DNA of 39,077 nt from an uncultured Bacteroidia bacterium (GTDB lineage Bacteria; Bacteroidota; Bacteroidia; Bacteroidales; Prolixibacteraceae). A model generated the notes under the pieces. That model saw only the letters and a program-made list of their open reading frames with translations. It was not told the DNA's origin and did not search any database. The stretch is from contig CAINLJ010000202.1 of assembly GCA_903850335.1 (NCBI GenBank), positions 1-39,077 of the forward strand, written 5' to 3'. Shown here piece by piece: positions 20,637 to 38,418 of this stretch (the stretch's first letter is position 1; each line of letters opens with the position of its first letter). Both the position numbers and the translations under genes were made by a program.

Positions 20637-21725
20637 ATGGAAAATTTTATTTCTCAACCAATTAAGAATTTGTTTTCAGGGTTAATTTCAAGAGTAAAAA
20701 ACTACTTAGGGACAGCATTTTCAATAATGGCTATAATCCTACTCCCCAATATAATAACCGCAAAAGGTCTAAGCATAAACGATTTGGGAAAGACAGCCAT
20801 TTCCACCTCCAATCCCGGGTCAGCGGAGCAAAACACAACATCGGCCGAGAGGCTTGGGTTTCCAAAGGGGAAGAAAATACTGCTCCTTCACATTGATGAT
20901 GCAGGGATGTGTCCTGAGGCAAATGCTGCGACCCAGCATTACATTGGCAATGGATTCCTTCATTCAGCGGCTGTTATGATGCCTTGTCCAAGTGCAGAGG
21001 CAATGATTGCATGGACGAGGAGTCATCGGGGCGAAGATATTGGACTTCATCTTACACTTACAAGTGAATGGTCGGAATATCGCTGGGGACCGGTCTCCAA
21101 TCCGGCACTCATCCCGGGACTTGTTGATCCTTTTGGAAAATTCTGGCATGAGGTACCGGATGTGGCGATGCATGCTTCGGCTAAGGAAGTAGAGACTGAA
21201 ATCAGGGCACAAATAGAAAAATCTATCTCGCTCGGTTACCGTCCCAGCCATATCGATACTCATATGGGTACTCTTTACGGAACCCCTGAATATGTTAAAG
21301 TTTTCTTACAAGTTGCTGAAGAATATCATATTCCGGCAAATGTGATTGATCTGACTTACCCCGAAGTAGCCGAAAAATTCAAGGCCATGGGTTACCCGGT
21401 AAATGATGCAGTGGTGAAGCTTGTTGCCTGTTATACAATGCCACGACTCGACAACTTTACAAGCGTACAAGAGGGGAAAACCTACGATGAAAAGAGATCG
21501 AATTTTTTCAAACTCGTTGAATCATTAAATCCAGGTTTAACTGAGATTATCTTTCATCCTTCCGTTCCAACGGAAAACATGAAATCAATTACAGGTACCT
21601 GGCAACAACGCGCATGGGAAGCCGAGCTGTTTTCTGATCCTGTAGTCATACAATATCTTAGGGATAAAGGAATAATCATAACCAACTGGAAGGAGATTAT
21701 GGCGCGCTTCGAACACAAAAAATAA
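20637..21725 (+). CDS. YdjC/ChbG-type carbohydrate deacetylase with N-terminal export signal
   Basis: A 362-residue protein whose catalytic part (about 78-360) has the YdjC-family blocks: LLLHIDDAGMC with Asp87 and Asp88, GLHLTLTSEW with His138, and SHIDTHMGT with His205 and His209. These make up the Asp/His/His metal site and catalytic aspartate. Family members remove the acetyl group from N-acetylated oligosaccharides (for example ChbG on chitooligosaccharides). The first ~45 residues contain a hydrophobic stretch (GTAFSIMAIILLPNIITAKG) after a long polar n-region, indicating export or membrane anchoring, whereas E. coli ChbG is cytoplasmic. The next gene encodes an acetyltransferase-like membrane protein. 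Substrate is inferred to be an N-acetylated amino-sugar glycan fragment. Confidence 0.88.
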   Translation: MENFISQPIKNLFSGLISRVKNYLGTAFSIMAIILLPNIITAKGLSINDLGKTAISTSNPGSAEQNTTSAERLGFPKGKKILLLHIDDAGMCPEANAATQHYIGNGFLHSAAVMMPCPSAEAMIAWTRSHRGEDIGLHLTLTSEWSEYRWGPVSNPALIPGLVDPFGKFWHEVPDVAMHASAKEVETEIRAQIEKSISLGYRPSHIDTHMGTLYGTPEYVKVFLQVAEEYHIPANVIDLTYPEVAEKFKAMGYPVNDAVVKLVACYTMPRLDNFTSVQEGKTYDEKRSNFFKLVESLNPGLTEIIFHPSVPTENMKSITGTWQQRAWEAELFSDPVVIQYLRDKGIIITNWKEIMARFEHKK

Positions 21726-21759: not shown

Positions 21760-22848
21760 ATGGACAATCAAAAAAGAATTCTTGCAATTGATATCTTCCG
21801 TGGACTTACAATGTCGATGATGATCCTTGTGAATTATCCGGGTGCCCGTAGTTACATATACCCCCCTCTCTCTCATGCAAAATGGAATGGAGCCACGCCA
21901 ACGGATTTTATCTTCCCATTCTTTATTTTTATTGTTGGAGTTTCAGTCGTACTCTCCCTCTCACGCCAGATTCATGCAGCTAAACCACGTAAGGAAATAG
22001 TGAAAAAGATTCTGATCAGAGGTATGAAAATTTATTTAATTGGATTTTTTTTACATTATCTTCCTGATTTTGATTTCAACAAGATTGATTTGTTTGGAGT
22101 ATTACAAAGGATATCAATTGTTTATGTAGCTTCGGCTGTACTTTACCTCTATACTTCATGGAAAACCCAATTATATATTGGGGGAATAATTCTCATAGGA
22201 TATTGGATTACATTGTCATTTATTCCAACGGACAGTTTTTTAGCAGGTACTATGGAGCCGGGAGTAAATTTTGCTGCATGGTTCGACAGGTTGTTCTTCT
22301 CAGCTGAAATGCTGGGTAAACATGGGTGGAATCCGGAAGGGATTTACAGTACTTTCCCCGCTATCGTAACCGGAATAACCGGAATGCTGGCAGGACGGTT
22401 AATTATTGTCGAAAAAATCACAGAAAAAACAATAATCTGGCTTTTTATTGCCGGAATTTCATGCATCCTGGCGGGTTCAATTTGGGACTGGCAATTCCCG
22501 ATCAACAAGAAACTATGGACAAGTTCATTTGTGCTTTATACCTCAGGCTGGGCTACAGTGGCTTTGGCATTTTCACTTTTTTTCTTTGATATCAGGAGCC
22601 ATAAAGATAATCCTATAGCCCGTTATGGAGTTATCTTTGGCAGTAATGCAATCGCAGTCTATGTATTAGCGGACCTCTTTGAGACAACTTATAAATACAC
22701 ATTTATTCACGACTTTGTATATGGAGGGTTGTCCGATCTGGGTGTCAGCGAAGTTAGTGCCTCGCTTGTATGGGCTTTATTCTCAGTAGGTTCCTGCTTT
22801 GTGGTAGCCTGGATTTTATATAAAAAACAACTGTTTTTTAAACTTTGA
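21760..22848 (+). CDS. NagX/HGSNAT-like multispanning membrane protein (DUF5009 acyltransferase)
   Basis: A 362-residue integral membrane protein with about ten predicted helices. The N-terminal signature AIDIFRGLTMSMMILVNYPG, followed by HAKWNGATPTDFIFPFFIF, is typical of the DUF5009 group related to human heparan-alpha-glucosaminide N-acetyltransferase and to NagX of bacterial GlcNAc loci. Human HGSNAT passes acetyl groups from cytoplasmic acetyl-CoA to terminal glucosamine on the other side of the membrane; the bacterial NagX role is not settled. Here it lies between an exported deacetylase and an exported oxidoreductase-like lipoprotein, with the next gene only 4 bp away, so it may handle acetyl groups of an amino sugar across the inner membrane (inference). 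Confidence 0.9.
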   Translation: MDNQKRILAIDIFRGLTMSMMILVNYPGARSYIYPPLSHAKWNGATPTDFIFPFFIFIVGVSVVLSLSRQIHAAKPRKEIVKKILIRGMKIYLIGFFLHYLPDFDFNKIDLFGVLQRISIVYVASAVLYLYTSWKTQLYIGGIILIGYWITLSFIPTDSFLAGTMEPGVNFAAWFDRLFFSAEMLGKHGWNPEGIYSTFPAIVTGITGMLAGRLIIVEKITEKTIIWLFIAGISCILAGSIWDWQFPINKKLWTSSFVLYTSGWATVALAFSLFFFDIRSHKDNPIARYGVIFGSNAIAVYVLADLFETTYKYTFIHDFVYGGLSDLGVSEVSASLVWALFSVGSCFVVAWILYKKQLFFKL

Positions 22849-22852
22849 CTTT

Positions 22853-24220
22853 ATGAAGATAGTTAGTGCAATTAAGATTTTTACAATTGTGTTTATTTTA
22901 CTCTGTTTCGCAGGATGTATTAACAATCCCGGCAACCAGCGGAAAGTGGCTGAATTCACAATTATCCAGCTTGATCCTACCCATGGTCATGCTGCAGCTG
23001 CTCAAAGTGAACAATTAAGTGGTTTGGATACAAATGTTTATGTCTATGCTCCTGATTTAACAGCTGTTGAACCATATTTACAACAGATAAATTCTTTCAA
23101 CCTGAGGAGCGATAATCCAACAAAATGGTTAGAAATACCCTATTACGGGCAGGATTATCTGGAAAAAATGGCTTCTGAGAAGAAGGGAAATATTGTTGTT
23201 CTTGCAGGTAACAACAGGGTTAAAATTGATTATATCGAAAAATCGATCCAGGCGGGGATGAATGTATTTTCGGATAAACCAATCGTAATTAACAAGGAAG
23301 GGTTTGACAGATTAAAGAGGGTTTATGAGCTTGCTACCGAAAAAGGGCTTGTACTTTTTGATATGATGACTGAGCGTTACAGCCTGATCAACAGAATACA
23401 GAAGTCACTTATGCAGGACAGTCTCCTGTTTGGCCATTTACTACCAGGGACTCCTGATCATCCATCCGTTATTGAGTCTAGTGTCCATCATTTCTATAGG
23501 GGTGGAAAGGGAACACGTCCTGCATGGTATTTCGATGTTCAGCAGCAGGGAGAAGGAATTGTTGATGTTACGACGCATTTGATTGATTTGTCGTTTTGGA
23601 AATCTTTTCCCGATCAAAGCATAGATTTTAATAGGGATGTGAATGTATTATCTGCAAGTCACTCACCCGTTATAATCACAAAAAGTGCATTCGCTGCTGC
23701 CACTTCGTTACCTGAAATTCCTTCATCATTAAACAATTACATGAAGGATTCAGTTCTGGAGGTATATGCCAACGGAAGTATAACCTATTGTGTAAAAGGG
23801 ATAAATACCCGTGTAAATGTTGAATGGCGTCCTGCCACACCCCCGGGGGGAAACGATCTGAGAAATGCATGCGCTGAAGGTACAAAATGTACACTAATTA
23901 TCAGTCAGGAGTTTGGACAGACAAGTCCAAAACTTTGTGTTCTAAAGGGCGAAAAAGTTACAGATCAGCAGTTTAAAATAGTCTTACAAAATGCTATTGG
24001 AAGCCTGCAAAATGAATATCCAGGCATATCATTAAGTGGCGATGGAAATCCAGTTCAAATTAATATTCCTTCAGGATTAAGAAGCTCTCATGACCCGACA
24101 TTTAAAGTATTTCTGGGTTTCCTGAAAAATAAGGATATGCCAAAATGGGAAGTTCCGAACACACTTGCAAAATACTATATCACGACTACAGCATTAGAAA
24201 TGGCTAAGCAGAAGAAATAA
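22853..24220 (+). CDS. Gfo/Idh/MocA-like lipoprotein (putative oxidoreductase C-terminal domain)
   Basis: A 455-residue lipoprotein (lipobox FAGC, Cys22). The fold is that of sugar dehydrogenases of the Gfo/Idh/MocA group: a DKP motif with Lys142 (usually EKP) ends the nucleotide-binding domain, and a long C-terminal region (SVHHFYRGGKGTRPAWYFDV, then GEGIVDVTTHLIDLSFW) matches the Oxidoreduct_C family (PF16490). The N-terminal glycine-rich loop expected for NAD(P) is replaced by QLDPTHGHAAAA, so cofactor binding is uncertain. With the Tat-exported relative 17 bp downstream it could form a periplasmic sugar oxidoreductase pair. Similar exported pairs occur in Bacteroidota clusters for glycoside oxidation; the substrate here is unknown. 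Confidence 0.87.
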   Translation: MKIVSAIKIFTIVFILLCFAGCINNPGNQRKVAEFTIIQLDPTHGHAAAAQSEQLSGLDTNVYVYAPDLTAVEPYLQQINSFNLRSDNPTKWLEIPYYGQDYLEKMASEKKGNIVVLAGNNRVKIDYIEKSIQAGMNVFSDKPIVINKEGFDRLKRVYELATEKGLVLFDMMTERYSLINRIQKSLMQDSLLFGHLLPGTPDHPSVIESSVHHFYRGGKGTRPAWYFDVQQQGEGIVDVTTHLIDLSFWKSFPDQSIDFNRDVNVLSASHSPVIITKSAFAAATSLPEIPSSLNNYMKDSVLEVYANGSITYCVKGINTRVNVEWRPATPPGGNDLRNACAEGTKCTLIISQEFGQTSPKLCVLKGEKVTDQQFKIVLQNAIGSLQNEYPGISLSGDGNPVQINIPSGLRSSHDPTFKVFLGFLKNKDMPKWEVPNTLAKYYITTTALEMAKQKK

Positions 24221-24237
24221 AACCAAATTAACTTATT

Positions 24238-25578
24238 ATGACAACGAGACGTGAAACTTTAAAAATAGCAGCTGCAGGATCCGCAGGAATAGCTTTGGGA
24301 GGTATCCTTCCCGGGTTTAGTGCAAAGAGTTACAATAGTATTATTGGGTCAAACGATCGTGTGAGGCTCTCTTTTATCGGAGTGAATTCGAGGGGATATT
24401 CTCTGGCACAGAACTTTGCGAAACTTAATACCTGCGAGGTCAAACACATTTGTGATGTTGATTCAAGAGCAATCGAAAAATGTGTTGTCAATATTGAGAA
24501 GATTTCCGGGACCAAACCAAAGGGGTTCAAGGATTTCAGGGAATCTCTGATGAGTAATGATGTTGATGCCGTAGTTATTGCGACCCCCGATAACTGGCAC
24601 GCTCCTGCGGCTATGCTTGCTATGAAGGCAGGGAAACATGTCTATCTGGAGAAACCCTGCAGTTACGCACCGGCTGAAGGTGAAATGCTTGTAGAGGGCG
24701 CGATAAAATATAACCGGGTAATGCAGATGGGAAACCAAAGAAGATCATGGCCAAATGTCATTCAGGGAATTAATGAGTTGAAGGACGGAGTTATCGGGCG
24801 TGTTTATTTCGCAAAGGGATGGTATGCAAATAACCGCAAATCAATTGGTATTGGCAAAGAAGCTCCGGTACCTGAATGGCTGGACTGGGATTTATGGCAG
24901 GGACCAGCCATCCGGAAACCATTCAAAGATAATTACGTTCATTATAACTGGCACTGGTTCTGGCATTGGGGCACCGGAGAGGCGCTAAATAATGGAACAC
25001 ATATGGCTGATCTTATGCGATGGGGACTTGGGGTTGACTTTGCTGGCAAAGTTAACTCAACAGGTGGCAGATACCGTTTCAAAGATGATTGGGAGACTCC
25101 CGATACCCAGGTAATCAGCATGGAATTTAACAACAATACGGCAATGACATGGGAAGGACGCAGCTGTAATCCTCATCTAATTGAAGGTGCTACAGTGGGG
25201 GTTACTTTCTATGGTGAAAATGGAACTTTGGTAACTCAGGGTGGTAACGACTATACAATCTATAGTATTGATGACAAAGTAATTAAAAGTGTAACAAGCG
25301 ATATTAAAATCGATTCTTCCAACCTGATGAATCCCGGAGAGAAACTCGATGCATTTCATTTGCAAAACTTCCTGGATGGGATAACTAAAGGAACTAAATT
25401 AAACTCCGACATTACAGGTGGCCATAAGAGTACACTCCTTGTTCAACTGGGAAATATTTCGCAAAGAGTTGGCAGAACATTAAATACAAACCCAAAGAAC
25501 GGTCATATACTGAACGACAATGAAGCAATGAAACTATGGTCACGTAAATATGAAAAAGGTTGGGAAATGACTGTGTGA
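24238..25578 (+). CDS. Tat-exported Gfo/Idh/MocA family oxidoreductase
   Basis: A 446-residue protein. A twin-arginine signal (TRRETLKIAAAGSAGIALGG) shows that it is exported folded, with its cofactor already bound. The nucleotide loop is FIGVNSRG, the EKP motif with Lys139 is in VYLEKPCSY, and the catalytic-type His255 lies in NNGTHMADLMRWGLG. These are standard Gfo/Idh/MocA features, and related exported members use a tightly bound NAD(H), as glucose-fructose oxidoreductase does. It probably oxidises, reduces or epimerises a sugar or glycoside in the periplasm. Its upstream neighbour is the lipoprotein paralogue; a 63-bp gap separates it from the 2-hydroxyacid dehydrogenase gene. Confidence 0.92.
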   Translation: MTTRRETLKIAAAGSAGIALGGILPGFSAKSYNSIIGSNDRVRLSFIGVNSRGYSLAQNFAKLNTCEVKHICDVDSRAIEKCVVNIEKISGTKPKGFKDFRESLMSNDVDAVVIATPDNWHAPAAMLAMKAGKHVYLEKPCSYAPAEGEMLVEGAIKYNRVMQMGNQRRSWPNVIQGINELKDGVIGRVYFAKGWYANNRKSIGIGKEAPVPEWLDWDLWQGPAIRKPFKDNYVHYNWHWFWHWGTGEALNNGTHMADLMRWGLGVDFAGKVNSTGGRYRFKDDWETPDTQVISMEFNNNTAMTWEGRSCNPHLIEGATVGVTFYGENGTLVTQGGNDYTIYSIDDKVIKSVTSDIKIDSSNLMNPGEKLDAFHLQNFLDGITKGTKLNSDITGGHKSTLLVQLGNISQRVGRTLNTNPKNGHILNDNEAMKLWSRKYEKGWEMTV

Positions 25579-30524: not shown

Positions 30525-31766
30525 ATGAAATTCATTTTTTTCTTTCGCTTTAAACTTTTAATCGTATTTAATTTGCTGATTCTCTTGAATAATTCGTACG
30601 CTCAAACCAGAATTGAAGGATTGTTATATCTCACCAATAAACCGGTGTCTATATTAATAAAAGAGGGGAAAATCATTCGTGTTCAGGCAATTGAAAAGCT
30701 TTCGGATGAAAGTCATCCTCTATTTGTTGCTCCCGGTCTCATTGATAATCAGGTTAACGGATTTGCCGGCATATCTTTTTGCTTTGCCGGAGGAGAGTTG
30801 ACTAATGAGGGAATATTAAAAGCTACACAGGAACTCTGGAAAAAAGGAATAACCACTTACCTGCCAACTCTTACATCGAACAGTAATGAAGTGATCTTAC
30901 GGAACCTTGCATTGCTGGCAACTGCCAAAATTAATCCTGCCCTACACGGATCCATCGCAGGATTCCATCTGGAGGGGCCTTACATCTCTGCTGTGGATGG
31001 CTACCGCGGTGCACACCCGCTAAAATATGTACGCAAACCAGACTGGCAGGAATTTATGGAGTGGTATAAATCTTCGCGCAGTAATATCAGGACAATTACT
31101 CTTGCCCCTGAAGTTGAAGGTTCAATGGAATTCATCAGAAAATGTACCGCCCTTGGCATCATTGTGGCCATTGGCCATCACAATGCTGACAAAAAAACTA
31201 TTGATGAGGCGGTTGAAAATGGGGCAAGGATCACTACCCATCTTGGAAATGGTTGCGCGAACATGATCAACCGACATCTGAATCCTCTATGGCCTCAACT
31301 TGCTAATGATAAACTCATGTCCAGTATTATTTGTGATGGTTTCCATTTGCGGGACGAAGAAATTTCAGTTTTTTATAAGGTCAAAGGTCCTGACAGGACA
31401 ATCATAACTTCAGATGTAACCAGCTTCGCATCATTACCCCCCGGAAATTACAAAAATGAAGAAGGAGAAACTATTGAACTCACCAGGGAAGGTATGCTTC
31501 GTTTACCTGTGCAAAATGTTCTTTATGGTTCGGCCTCTCCTATCTCAAGAGGCGTTGCCCGAATTATGAAAATTACAGGATGTTCTTTGGGTGAGGCAAT
31601 TAAGATGTCGAGTACAAATCCTGCAATGTTATATGGTTTAAAAGACAGGGGAAGAATTGAAAAAGGGATGCGTGCTGACCTTATATTATTTGAAATAGGG
31701 GATTCTGATCTTGTAATTAAAAAGACTTATGTTGAAGGTAATCTGGTTTATGAGGCAGGTAAATAG
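30525..31766 (+). CDS. nagA: N-acetylglucosamine-6-phosphate deacetylase-like amidohydrolase with signal peptide
   Basis: A 413-residue amidohydrolase. The active site follows NagA: Glu150 (HLEGPY), His218 (IGHHNAD), His239 (THLGNG), His274 (DGFHLR) and catalytic Asp297 (TSDVTS), with spacing nearly identical to E. coli NagA (E131, H195, H216, H251, D273). Arg250 lies at the spacing of the E. coli phosphate-contact Arg227, but THLYNAM is changed to THLGNGC. Unlike normal cytoplasmic NagA, residues 1-26 form a Sec signal peptide (LLIVFNLLILLNNSYA, then Q), and no later Met could replace the start. It should therefore act in the periplasm, where GlcNAc-6-phosphate is not expected, so an unphosphorylated or glycan-linked N-acetyl sugar is plausible. 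It ends the first plus-strand block. Confidence 0.88.
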   Translation: MKFIFFFRFKLLIVFNLLILLNNSYAQTRIEGLLYLTNKPVSILIKEGKIIRVQAIEKLSDESHPLFVAPGLIDNQVNGFAGISFCFAGGELTNEGILKATQELWKKGITTYLPTLTSNSNEVILRNLALLATAKINPALHGSIAGFHLEGPYISAVDGYRGAHPLKYVRKPDWQEFMEWYKSSRSNIRTITLAPEVEGSMEFIRKCTALGIIVAIGHHNADKKTIDEAVENGARITTHLGNGCANMINRHLNPLWPQLANDKLMSSIICDGFHLRDEEISVFYKVKGPDRTIITSDVTSFASLPPGNYKNEEGETIELTREGMLRLPVQNVLYGSASPISRGVARIMKITGCSLGEAIKMSSTNPAMLYGLKDRGRIEKGMRADLILFEIGDSDLVIKKTYVEGNLVYEAGK

Positions 31767-31844
31767 GCTATTCGGCTTTGGGGCTGTTCGGGGTTTCGGC
31801 TATTCGGGGTTAGGCGGATCGGAAATTCGGCTATTCGGGGTTTG
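31766..31844. repeat. Degenerate ~16-bp tandem repeat, five units
   Basis: Units begin at 31766, 31782, 31798, 31813 and 31829 with the theme GGCTATTCGGGGTTT. Units 1, 3 and 5 share GGCTATTCGG exactly, unit 2 has one change, and unit 4 is the most diverged. The array begins in the stop-codon region of the NagA-like gene and is visibly richer in G than its surroundings. An inverted partial copy, AGCCGAAAAGCC at 31952-31963, pairs with the first unit at 11 of 12 positions. Confidence 0.7.
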
Positions 31845-32012: not shown

Positions 32013-33314
32013 ATGACAAACTTAACCAACAAAATGGGCACTTACCGTTACCGTATTCTTGCCCTGGTGTTTATGGCAACTACAATAAATTATTTCGACA
32101 GGAGTATTGTCGGAGTCATGGCACCTACGCTGCAAAAACTTTTCGACTGGAGTAATAAGGATTATGCAGCGATTATGGTCTCATTCAAAATAGCCTATGG
32201 TATTGGATTGCTATTTATGGGAGGTGTAATCGATAAACTGGGAACTAAAAAAGGATATACGCTTTCAATAGTGATATGGAGTATTTTTGGCATGTTACAT
32301 GCCGTGATCAGGCCTGCATTTAGTTTGGCAGGTTTTATTGCGGCACGGTTCGGTCTCGGAATAGGTGAATCCGGAAATTTTCCGGCAGCAATAAAAACAG
32401 TAGCAGAATGGTTTCCAAAGAGAGACCGAGCCTTTGCCACCGGGATTTTTGATGCTTCTACAAGCGTAGGTGCCATACTTGCTCCGTTTATCGTTGGTGC
32501 CATCGTTTCAGTTGAAGGTGCGAATTGGCAGATTCCTTTTCTGTTTACTGGGATTTTAAGTGCTTTGTGGGTATTTCTTTGGCTTAAAACTTATCAGAAA
32601 CCAGAGGATCATCCACGTCTAACCGAAAAGGAACTAGCCTATATAAACAGCGACTCAGCGGAGGAAAATACGGAAAGTATTCCCTGGATTAAACTTGTTC
32701 CCAAGCGGGAAACCTGGGCATTCGCACTGACAACAATCACTGATGGGGTATGGTGGTTTTACCTTTTTTGGGGTGCCAAGTTTCTGGCTGAACGTTTCGG
32801 CGTAGACATAAAGAACATAGGGCCGCCATTTCTGATCATCTTTATTATGGCTGATGCCGGAAGTCTTTTGGGCGGATATATTTCCGGTCTGCTAATCAAA
32901 CAGGGATGGTCTCTAAATAAAGCCAGAAAAATAACAATGCTTGTTTGTGCAATCATCATATTACCCGTATCCTTTGTACCGGTTATTACAAGTAAATGGA
33001 TCGCGGTCTTTCTAATTGGTCTGGGTGCGGCAGGCCATCAGTCATGGTCCATAAACAGTTACACACTTGTGCCGGATGTATTTCCCAAGAAAGCCGTTGC
33101 TTCCGTGATCGGGATTGGTAAAATGGTGGGAGTTGCAGTTGCGGTATTAGCCGATCTGGCACTCGGAGCAGTCCTTGATACTGCCGGCAATTCCGGATAT
33201 TTCTGGGCATTTGTTATTGCAGGATTATCGTATCTCACAATTTTAGGTTTTGTTCATCTTCTTATGCCAAAGATGACTCCCCTGGATGATAACCTGAATT
33301 ATATTTATGAATAA
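32013..33314 (+). CDS. MFS transporter, anion:cation symporter family (hexuronate/sugar-acid type)
   Basis: A 433-residue permease with about twelve transmembrane helices. The first helix region reads ATTINYFDRSIVGVMAPTLQ, helices 2-3 carry GGVIDKLGTKKG, and helix 4 begins GIGESGNFPAAIKTVAEWFP. This pattern is characteristic of the ACS family (ExuT, GudP and related proton-coupled carriers of sugar acids). It is the only transporter found in the window and presumably brings the released monosaccharide, sugar acid or amino sugar across the inner membrane. It lies 17 bp before the NagB-like gene. Substrate is inferred from the family and neighbours only. A second ATG seven codons in (MGTYRYRI) could also be the start. 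Confidence 0.92.
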   Translation: MTNLTNKMGTYRYRILALVFMATTINYFDRSIVGVMAPTLQKLFDWSNKDYAAIMVSFKIAYGIGLLFMGGVIDKLGTKKGYTLSIVIWSIFGMLHAVIRPAFSLAGFIAARFGLGIGESGNFPAAIKTVAEWFPKRDRAFATGIFDASTSVGAILAPFIVGAIVSVEGANWQIPFLFTGILSALWVFLWLKTYQKPEDHPRLTEKELAYINSDSAEENTESIPWIKLVPKRETWAFALTTITDGVWWFYLFWGAKFLAERFGVDIKNIGPPFLIIFIMADAGSLLGGYISGLLIKQGWSLNKARKITMLVCAIIILPVSFVPVITSKWIAVFLIGLGAAGHQSWSINSYTLVPDVFPKKAVASVIGIGKMVGVAVAVLADLALGAVLDTAGNSGYFWAFVIAGLSYLTILGFVHLLMPKMTPLDDNLNYIYE

Positions 33315-33331: not shown

Positions 33332-34057
33332 ATGGAAATAGTCATTTCTGAATCCAAGCAGGAGCTTGGAAAAATTGCGGCGCAAACAGGAGCAGATTTA
33401 ATTCGTAAAGCGATCATTCAAAATGGAGAAGCTTTTATAATTGTAGCCACTGGAGCATCCCAGTTTGAGATGCTTGGCGAGCTTGTCAAAGAAGACCTGA
33501 ACTGGTCACTGGTTACTGCATTTCATCTGGATGAATATATCGGAATCTCTGATCAACATCCGGCCTCATTTCGGAAATACCTTAAGGAGAGATTTGCCGA
33601 CCTTGTTTTACCCCGCGAATTTAATTATGTCAATGGAGATGATGATCCTGACGCCGAATGCAAACGACTTGGCGATCTGATCAGCAAACAGCCGATTGAT
33701 GTGGCATTTGTTGGTATTGGTGAAAACGGTCATCTGGCCTTCAACGATCCACCGGCAGATTTCGAAATTGAAGACCCTTATCTTGTTGTAAATCTTAATG
33801 ATGCCTGCCGCCATCAGCAATTAGGCGAAGGTTGGTTTCCTACTTTTGATGACGTACCTAAAAAGGCGATAAGCATGTCCATCAGACAAATAATGAAATC
33901 GAAAGCAATAATCTGCAGTGTTCCGGATGACAGGAAAGCGCAGGCAGTATATGGCACCCTAAACAATGAGATTTCACCCGATTGCCCTGCTTCAATTCTT
34001 AGGAATCATCCAAATACAATATTATATCTCGACAAGCAATCTTCGTCATTATTATGA
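33332..34057 (+). CDS. nagB: Glucosamine-6-phosphate deaminase family protein (NagB-like)
   Basis: A 241-residue cytoplasmic sugar-phosphate isomerase/deaminase. FHLDEY holds Asp67 (equivalent of the general base Asp72 of E. coli NagB) and [13 protein letters not shown] holds His134 (equivalent of His143). The motif differs from E. coli GNDGHIAFNEP: the Asp141 position is Asn132 and the Glu148 position is Asp139. That marks a divergent NagB clade, so deamination of GlcN-6-P to fructose-6-P is likely but not certain. No GlcN or GlcNAc kinase is present in the window to supply the phosphate. Its TGA overlaps the ATG of the following GH92 gene (ATGA), implying translational coupling. Confidence 0.88.
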
Positions 34058-36633: not shown

Positions 36634-38418
36634 ATGAATAACCGCAGAGACTTCCTGAGGAAAGGCGCACTGGCTGGGATCCTTTTATCAGGAGCCACCG
36701 GGATAAGCGGAGATCTTGTCGCCCTGGATAAATCGGAATTAAAGAATGGCACGTTAACTAAGAATTCCGGCACGATCTTTAATTCAATCGCCTTTATCAC
36801 CTCAGAAAGTCCTGGGGTTCTCGCGGAAAAGGCAACGAGAATTTTCCTCAGGATTCTCAACGAGCGTACAGGTCTCGATTTCAGCGGAAGCGGGGGGAAC
36901 CACCTCACAATCCGGTTAAGGATTTTAGCCCGGACAATGCCCCCTGAGGCATTCCGGATAGAGAAACCGGAGGAAAACAGTATCATCCTTTCTGCCAGCG
37001 ATTCAAACGGTATCTTGTATGGATTGGGGAAACTGCTCCATATATCGGTCATCTCTGAGGCTGGATTTATTCCGGGAGAATGGCATGGGTTATCGGTCCC
37101 GGAGAAGTCACAGCGAAACATCTATTTCGCCACACATTTTCATAATTTCTACCACACAGCCCCGGTGGAAAAGGTGATAAACTATATTGAAGAGCTCGCA
37201 CTCTGGGGGTATAACAACATTGAGGTGTGGTTCGACATGCACGGTTTTGAGGGAATTAATGACCCTAAAGCTGGGGCTATGTTAGACCGGCTGACAATCA
37301 TTTTGAGAGCAGGCAAAGATGCCGGAATGAAAATCTCAATTTGCATGCTCGCCAATGAAGGTTACAATTCATCCCCAATTGAATTGCGGGCCCAACCTCC
37401 GAAACAGATCAGGCTGCGCGGGTGCTACGGGGTGGAAATCTGTCCTTCGCAACCGGGTGGAACCGAATTGATCCTGAAACAGATCGAAGAGGAACTCGAG
37501 GCCTTCAGCCTACGCGGTGTACTTGTCGATTTCATCGTTGTCTGGCCTTATGATCAGGGTGGTTGCGGATGCGACAGGTGTACTCCCTGGGGAAGCAACG
37601 GCTATCTGAAATTGTCAGGAAAAATAACAGAGCTCGCCCACCGAAAAATACCCGGTGTAAGGATTATCCTTTCAACCTGGCTGTTCGATTGTGTTGAAGA
37701 TGAAGGGGAATGGGCCGGAGTCGCCAAAGCTTTCAGGGATGAGAAACCGTGGGTTGACTTTATCCAGGCCGATTCCCATGAAGCATTTCCCAAATATCTC
37801 AAGAACAACCCGGTTCCGGGAGACCTTCCGCTGCTAAATTTCCCTGAAATTAGTATGTGGAATTCATGGCCATGGGGTGGATTTGGAGCAAATCCGCTAC
37901 CCCAAAGGTTTCAGGGATTGTGGGACGAAGTCAAGGACAAAGTTGCGGGTGGTGCACCTTATTCAGAGGGGATATTTGAAGATATCAACAAAGTCATTTA
38001 CAGTCAGTTTTATTGGACGGGTTCCAAGACTTCAATTCAAACAGTCAGGGAATATGTATCGTTTGAATTCTCTGCAGATCATGCAGAATCTATCATAAAG
38101 GCCATTGAAATCCTTGAAACAAACCATGGGTTAAGAGCAGGATTTAAACCAGGGTCTCCTCCCACCTTTAAAGTTCCCACAGAGGATTACGGGGCTGAGG
38201 AAGCATATAATTTGCTGAAAGAAGTGGATCACAATCTCCCGGAGAGAACAAGAATCAGCTGGCGGTGGAGGATATTATTTCTGCGGGCAATGTTTGATTA
38301 TAAATTGAGGAAAAATAAAGGATTTACAGACGAAACGGTTGAGGCCGGATTTCGGGAGTTAACTGAATTATATTATGCATATCAGGCAGATTTATCTGTC
38401 CAGCCACCACTAAAATAA
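36634..38418 (+). CDS. Tat-exported GH20/DUF4838-like TIM-barrel protein
   Basis: A 594-residue protein. A twin-arginine signal (NNRRDFLRKGALAGILLSG) directs export. Residues ~45-140 resemble the small N-terminal domain of GH20/GH67 enzymes (ASDSNGILYGLGKLLHIS). From about 160 on, a TIM-barrel-like region carries HFHNFYHTAPVEKVINYIEE, WGYNNIEVWFDMHGF, VVWPYDQGGCGCDRC (Asp307; Cys311, Cys313, Cys316) and QADSHEAFP. The C-x-C-D-x-C motif matches that of the DUF4838 protein at 28255-30492. I cannot name a characterised family. It is probably an uncharacterised glycoside hydrolase, and the Tat route suggests folding or metal loading before export. It is the last plus-strand gene; its stop is 34 bp from the convergent gene. 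Confidence 0.75.
   Translation: MNNRRDFLRKGALAGILLSGATGISGDLVALDKSELKNGTLTKNSGTIFNSIAFITSESPGVLAEKATRIFLRILNERTGLDFSGSGGNHLTIRLRILARTMPPEAFRIEKPEENSIILSASDSNGILYGLGKLLHISVISEAGFIPGEWHGLSVPEKSQRNIYFATHFHNFYHTAPVEKVINYIEELALWGYNNIEVWFDMHGFEGINDPKAGAMLDRLTIILRAGKDAGMKISICMLANEGYNSSPIELRAQPPKQIRLRGCYGVEICPSQPGGTELILKQIEEELEAFSLRGVLVDFIVVWPYDQGGCGCDRCTPWGSNGYLKLSGKITELAHRKIPGVRIILSTWLFDCVEDEGEWAGVAKAFRDEKPWVDFIQADSHEAFPKYLKNNPVPGDLPLLNFPEISMWNSWPWGGFGANPLPQRFQGLWDEVKDKVAGGAPYSEGIFEDINKVIYSQFYWTGSKTSIQTVREYVSFEFSADHAESIIKAIEILETNHGLRAGFKPGSPPTFKVPTEDYGAEEAYNLLKEVDHNLPERTRISWRWRILFLRAMFDYKLRKNKGFTDETVEAGFRELTELYYAYQADLSVQPPLK

Follow-up and report, generated by a model that had tools for sequence, protein, structure and literature searches.

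In related bacteria, the class of transporter encoded beside nagA follows the compartment assigned to the NagA-type enzyme, and this covariation is the strongest evidence of our analysis. The enzyme from which we started, P0001, is encoded at 30525-31766 of the window (the whole 39,077-nucleotide stretch of DNA analysed here) and, judged by its sequence, is a NagA-fold amidohydrolase with intact metal and catalytic residues and a predicted Sec-type signal. Because the carrier class follows the NagA signal, deacetylation before entry of the sugar is suggested. Chitin, peptidoglycan and glycoproteins supply amino sugars that are major sources of carbon and nitrogen, and in the textbook routes the N-acetyl sugar is imported, phosphorylated and only then deacetylated. 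In the pathway proposed here, the exported NagA-type enzyme would remove the N-acetyl group of an amino sugar in the periplasm, most likely from GlcNAc or a derivative of it released from glycans. The free amine would be imported by a dedicated carrier (an ACS-type MFS transporter in the window, an Nramp-like protein in many relatives), and a divergent NagB-like enzyme would deaminate and isomerise it in the cytoplasm. We regard this joint reading of periplasmic deacetylation, import of the free amine and deamination inside as probable, if well short of assured. If true, deacetylation first, outside the inner membrane, would alter pathway predictions for many Bacteroidota and perhaps for other phyla, would provide a testable substrate for an Nramp branch whose members are currently annotated as metal transporters, and would set right the names of genes now taken for ordinary nagA and nagB. 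Among the best matches in the open-licence literature, no title or abstract described export of a NagA, a phosphate-free NagB or an Nramp-like protein beside NagA/NagB, and the excerpted text of PMC9769791 mentions signal peptides only for outer-membrane proteins.

The argument is carried by the MFS and NagB-like genes just 3′ of nagA, which the preliminary description of this DNA did not cite. The features of this unit are as follows:

30525..31766, + strand, NagA-type amidohydrolase P0001, predicted exported (413 aa, ATG start)
30525..30602, + strand, signal peptide coding region of P0001, residues 1-26, predicted cut after SYA
32013..33314, + strand, ACS-type MFS transporter P0011 (PF07690), between nagA and the nagB-like gene, proposed importer of the deacetylated sugar
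33332..34057, + strand, NagB-like deaminase/isomerase P0012, with TGASQ and QQLGEGWF motifs

The N-terminus of P0001, MKFIFFFRFKLLIVFNLLILLNNSYAQ, opens with basic residues followed by a long hydrophobic core, and cleavage after SYA is plausible; signals in P0001 and its relatives were called by eye and with a hydropathy script. The AF2 model places a helix at residues 2-24 and a strand starting at 27, and its active-site loops are poor (mean pLDDT 73.6). These Sec-type features, together with the signals predicted in orthologs, support the signal peptide proposed in the preliminary description. It also states that P0001 has no alternative internal Met, and the first one does not occur until residue 178. 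There are, however, TTG codons at positions 17, 21 and 33 and one GTG at 41; a later start is argued against only because orthologs conserve the signal. These codons 3′ of the ATG, and the absence of the segment from some orthologs, would suit an uncleaved anchor or a mis-called start, P0001 then being an ordinary cytoplasmic NagA acting on GlcNAc-6-phosphate. We consider this very improbable, since signals recur, in three forms (Sec, lipobox and Tat), in records whose titles name several phyla, the carrier class follows them, and P0001 scored 209.7 bits against TIGR00221, the NCBI NagA equivalog, under the cut-off of 225.65.

Residues E150, H218, H239 and D297, together with H164 and H274, align with their counterparts in V. 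cholerae 3egj, T. maritima 1o12 and human 7nut, and the metal ligands and catalytic Asp of NagA are present in P0001. Against 3egj, the alignment is gap-free from TH239 to DGFH274, which bears out the earlier claim that the NagA catalytic and metal residues are in place with near-identical spacing. P0001 also exceeded the gathering cut-off of the amidohydrolase superfamily PF01979 (66 bits against 25), the solved structures closest to it are NagA enzymes (T. maritima 1o12, E 4.7e-42), and its first 33 Foldseek matches consist entirely of NagA enzymes and human AMDHD2. P0001 shares with NagA (TIGR00221; PDB 1o12, 2vhl, 3egj, 7nut) the fold, the metal and catalytic residues, and the Asn and Arg that contact phosphate. 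In contrast to cytoplasmic NagA, P0001 is predicted to be exported by a Sec-type signal, as are relatives; it is also linked to a different NagB, reads G-N-G where 3egj and 7nut have F-N-A, and carries an RHxNPxWxQ block. Searches of the source genome (95.6% complete) with P0001 at E 1e-5 and with TIGR00221 at E 1e-20 turned up no other NagA-like gene. A 246-bp gap with short repeats lies 3′ of nagA, and a short tandem repeat at 31766-31843 (period 16, 4.9 copies, GGCTATTCGGGGTTTC) is located between nagA and the MFS gene.

A scan of GTDB genomes yielded at least 559 confirmed relatives among at least 591 pattern matches, and the best 80 of these relatives were used as the 80 loci. By their record titles, these 80 best of at least 559 belong mostly to Bacteroidota, and the others to KSB1, Phycisphaerae, Calditrichia, Neomarinimicrobiota, Acidobacteriota and Balneolales; metagenome bins, in which contigs may be misplaced, make up many of them. 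Nearly all loci complete at the 5′ end encode a Sec-like or lipobox N-terminus, which is absent from L038, L073, L082, L089, L092, L093, L101 and L103. Among 115 non-redundant relatives, 77 were judged exported by a Sec, lipoprotein or Tat signal, a fraction biased upwards because the 80 loci were picked as the best matches of a profile that is itself mostly exported. Export was scored with the hydropathy script and by eye, rows absent from a hand-made cytosolic list being counted as exported, and for Tat and lipobox signals we relied on what we take to be their consensus. Three candidates for export were rejected and counted as cytosolic: the hydrophobic stretch of L236 overlaps the upstream carrier gene, and the first ATG read lies after the end of that gene; the sole start codon of L264 (ATG at 35) follows the hydrophobic stretch, and its relative L285 has the same start position; and the hydropathy score of L229 (1.73) came from its first beta strands. 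A class-wide sample gave matches in 6 of 395 genomes at E 1e-70 (at most 4 candidates scored per genome), and a phylum sample in 17 of 247 genomes at E 1e-60, about 7 of the 17 belonging to a GAQD-like group.

A supported branch splits the clade of P0001 relatives, with the signature RGAH ... THLGNG ... RHxNPxWxQ, from a second NagA group (GAQD), most of whose members are cytosolic. In the tree, the three PDB reference rows group with GAQD, a placement that is unsure because of their long branches. An exported clade of its own, which the preliminary description had raised as something that a family tree might reveal, was not recovered: on the best tree, export has to change 9 times, with strongly supported branches forcing 6 of these changes, and the second tree again requires 9. 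Truncated or masked sequences (L083, L110, L097, L040, L109 and L060) were left out of the first tree; the second excluded L002, the three PDB rows and near-copies (80% shared 5-mers). Very short NagA relatives were also seen in L238, L239, L241 and L242 (ORFs of 313-328 aa), in which the N-terminal strands that precede the PGxxD motif are missing.

Carriers were scored first in 99 loci with NagA, consisting of the 80 loci and 19 of 20 further regions (L243 being without NagA). For the second scoring, 40 more regions were added and near-copies removed, giving 115 rows, with both traits scorable in 76. All 48 exported NagAs with a scored carrier were accompanied by an Nramp-like carrier (36) or an ACS-type MFS of the window's kind (12), whereas all 28 cytosolic NagAs with a scored carrier were accompanied by another MFS (MFS_b or MFS_c; 13) or an SSF symporter (15), and none of the 76 rows was crossed. 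On the second tree, well-supported branches gave six independent contrasts, all in agreement (sign test, p 0.031), and there were seven contrasts when weak branches were allowed; on the first tree (99 rows), 5 of 5 agreed (p 0.0625). The carrier classes were fixed after the first 99 loci had been viewed. Of the 40 regions fetched after class definition, 18 were near-copies and 22 were not, and all 17 of the latter with a scored carrier agreed, these loci being all from the window's own family and several of them close kin. L260, L261, L262, L268 and L279 had no scored carrier, and L260 alone among the 22 lies outside the window's family.

The 39 rows without a scored carrier comprise 29 exported and 10 cytosolic NagAs. 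Two exported rows have a same-strand carrier outside the classes (CstA-like in L075, another MFS in L262), and in the exported L044, L104 and L233 the NagB-like gene is directly adjacent with no carrier seen. Of the 40 exported loci that have a NagB in reach, 33 place a carrier between nagA and the nagB-like gene (hydropathy identified it in 31, and an MFS was seen there in L090 and L091); of the 29 such cytosolic loci, 8 do so. The distant GAQD group repeats the export-carrier pattern: L240 pairs a Tat-type signal (NRREFLQ) with an Nramp-like carrier, L230 combines a Sec-type signal with an MFS whose closest match is the window's type (200 bits), and the cytosolic members with a scored carrier (5/5) have another MFS. 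L038, whose NagA is 74% identical to P0001, encodes no hydrophobic signal in three forward frames; its NagA frame starts 21 bases past the stop codon of the upstream gene, the NagB-like gene follows NagA within about 35 bases, and the contig is without an MFS gene. It stands outside the covariation test because there is no carrier to score. Orthologs without the hydrophobic segment, which the preliminary description had named as evidence against an exported enzyme, do exist, yet they fit the periplasmic reading because their scored carriers belong to the other kind. The joint change of signal peptide and carrier would amount to a natural experiment on moving a pathway step across the membrane.

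Within six genes of NagA, an Nramp-like carrier was found in 33 of the 80 loci (best 80 of at least 559) and the window's MFS type in 8. The carriers beside 36 of the 48 scored exported relatives belong to the same family as Nramp/MntH (PF01566), and all 38 non-identical copies beside NagA read YNIGTGS; in contrast to MntH, neither DPGN nor MPH occurred in any of the 38 (e.g. L047:11257-12492 and L058:11307-12539). The window's own nagA has no Nramp neighbour. We take DPGN and MPH to be the MntH motifs of Nramp metal transporters, and because both are absent, it appears unlikely that these proteins carry metal as MntH does; their substrate may be an organic cation such as glucosamine. NCBIfam names the one copy tested as a divalent metal transporter. 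As for P0011, its closest model is TIGR00893, named D-galactonate transporter (219.6 bits, below the cut-off of 395). Its ACS-type family consists, we presume, of organic-anion carriers, a point against import of a free amine in the window.

In P0001, the Asn and Arg by which NagA contacts the 6-phosphate are kept as N242 and R250, and each has an equivalent in 73 of 75 exported clade members. The residue before Asn242 is Gly in all 75 exported and all 29 cytosolic clade members and aromatic in 3egj and 7nut. According to excerpts of PMC6016474, the equivalents of Asn242 and Arg250 contact phosphate in mycobacterial NagA. Loss of the phosphate contacts, considered as proof of a non-phosphorylated substrate, was rejected since the contacts are kept, and their retention calls for caution about substrate and phosphorylation state. 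The same excerpts give two mycobacterial NagAs as having no activity on plain GlcNAc, which counts against our main reading, and as accepting GlcNAc-6-sulfate with a 7-fold higher Km. Exported NagA might accordingly act on a sugar with an anionic C6 group (sulfate, carboxylate or phosphodiester) held by the Asn and Arg, and the ACS-type MFS might import the resulting acidic amino sugar, in keeping with the resemblance of P0011 to the D-galactonate model. We rate this as quite unlikely: a Pfam scan of 18 window proteins found no sulfatase, and Nramp-like carriers outnumber the window's MFS type, both in the 80 best of at least 559 loci (33 against 8) and in the 48 exported rows (36 against 12).

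The NagB-like partner shares its fold and the GIGxNGH and DEY motifs with NagB (TIGR00502; PDB 2bkv, 2ri1), but P0012 reads TGASQ in the TGGTP-type loop, GEGWF for NARYF, with loss of its Arg, and FNDP for FNEP, and it scored 138.2 bits against TIGR00502, below the cut-off of 236.9. A NagB-like gene lies within six genes of NagA in 43 of the 80 loci (best 80 of at least 559), many of which are cut by contig ends. In all 43, xxEGWF replaces NARYF/NSRFF (41 by pattern, L072 and L082 by alignment), and in 42 SQ occupies the TGGTP/TGSTP loop position, L041 not being readable by pattern; TGxSQ and EGWF are invariant in an alignment of P0012 with 20 NagB-like neighbours. We take the TGGTP loop and the Arg of NARYF to be the phosphate-binding positions of NagB, although no paper listing these positions was found in the open literature. 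If they do bind phosphate, the linked enzyme appears to have lost the NagB phosphate site. Among 61 related genomes, 19 encode both a member of the NagA clade and a NagB-like protein, 4 NagA alone, 1 the NagB-like protein alone and 37 neither (Fisher p 5e-11, uncorrected for kinship). NagAs of the GAQD type (L226-L232, L191-L197) are often linked to another NagB-like subfamily, with AAPSQ / HMDEY / QQVNDGCF-type motifs, which is also without the canonical loop and Arg.

These motifs bear on whether the amine is phosphorylated before the NagB-like enzyme acts. Free glucosamine from an exported NagA could be imported, phosphorylated by a housekeeping hexokinase or ROK kinase and then deaminated, so that only the compartment of deacetylation would be new. 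A GlcN-6-phosphate role for the NagB-like enzyme would be unexpected because the motif positions are lost in the linked copies, provided that they bind phosphate as we assume, and no kinase was among the recurring neighbours in the clusters scanned. The kept phosphate-contact residues of NagA and ten ROK-family matches in the window's genome nevertheless leave room for such a step. That genome also encodes, separately, a canonical NagB with the original motifs (L143), and a Bacteroides hexokinase and ROK protein phosphorylate glucosamine, according to excerpts of PMC11300592. On balance, we find phosphorylation of imported glucosamine somewhat unlikely. Our preferred reading of periplasmic deacetylation, import and deamination can also be put in a stricter, kinase-free form, in which non-metal Nramp-like or ACS-MFS carriers import the cation, the NagB-like enzyme works without a phosphate site, and signal and carrier have been switched together across lineages; in this form it is a serious possibility, though we lean slightly against it.

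Upstream of the unit, four further genes were considered:

20637..21725, + strand, YdjC-type carbohydrate deacetylase P0002, with an N-terminal hydrophobic segment (PF04794, 179.7 bits)
21760..22848, + strand, NagX/HGSNAT-like membrane protein P0003, proposed acetyltransferase (PF07786)
22853..24220, + strand, lipoprotein-like Gfo/Idh oxidoreductase P0005 (PF16490)
24238..25578, + strand, Gfo/Idh oxidoreductase P0006, with a Tat-like N-terminus, relative of glycoside 3-dehydrogenases

The YdjC-type and NagX/HGSNAT-like genes are present as the preliminary description had reported (PF04794 and PF07786), P0003 scoring 172.1 bits against NF046061 (NagX), below the cut-off of 480. It had also taken them as partners in a periplasmic de-N-acetylation route, and this we rejected as a general rule: among the 80 best of at least 559 loci, a YdjC-type gene occurs anywhere in the locus in 6 and a NagX-like gene in 10, against 43 with a NagB-like gene. 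NagX is moreover proposed to acetylate periplasmic glucosamine, the opposite reaction, in excerpts of Price et al. 2022 (PMC9007349). In the NagX-NagP-NagK-NagA glucosamine pathway described there, acetylation takes place in the periplasm and deacetylation inside the cell, after phosphorylation. Both that pathway and ours begin with periplasmic amino-group chemistry followed by transport, whereas acetyl removal is here proposed to occur outside. The proposed route thus keeps its footing in the export signals of most relatives examined and in the carrier switch, and loses NagX and YdjC as support.

P0006 scored 147 bits against NF058561 (BT2158 glycoside 3-dehydrogenase), below the cut-off of 750, and its best solved matches are 8tdf (4e-24) and 8tdh (1.5e-23). 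A GH109-type glycosidase identity was rejected, GH109 proteins matching far more weakly (1.6e-10 and 1.3e-9). BT2158 of Bacteroides is a studied periplasmic glycoside 3-dehydrogenase, according to excerpts of PMC11300592; P0006, its relative in the gene run, differs in adjoining NagA and NagB-like genes. Within six genes of NagA, P0006-type proteins were found in 40 and a shorter Gfo/Idh in 27 of the 80 best of at least 559 loci. Relatives of P0005 are present in 8 of these 80 loci. A 594-aa protein with a Tat-like N-terminus, encoded at 36634-38418, has relatives in 5 of the same 80 best loci and had no Pfam match at E 0.001. All 16 assigned ORFs at 16752-38418 lie on the + strand, and this same-strand run around the NagA unit also encodes BNR-repeat, GH92, DUF4838, FAD oxidoreductase, DHDPS-family, RraA-like and HpcH-like proteins, which suggests a complex-glycan locus.
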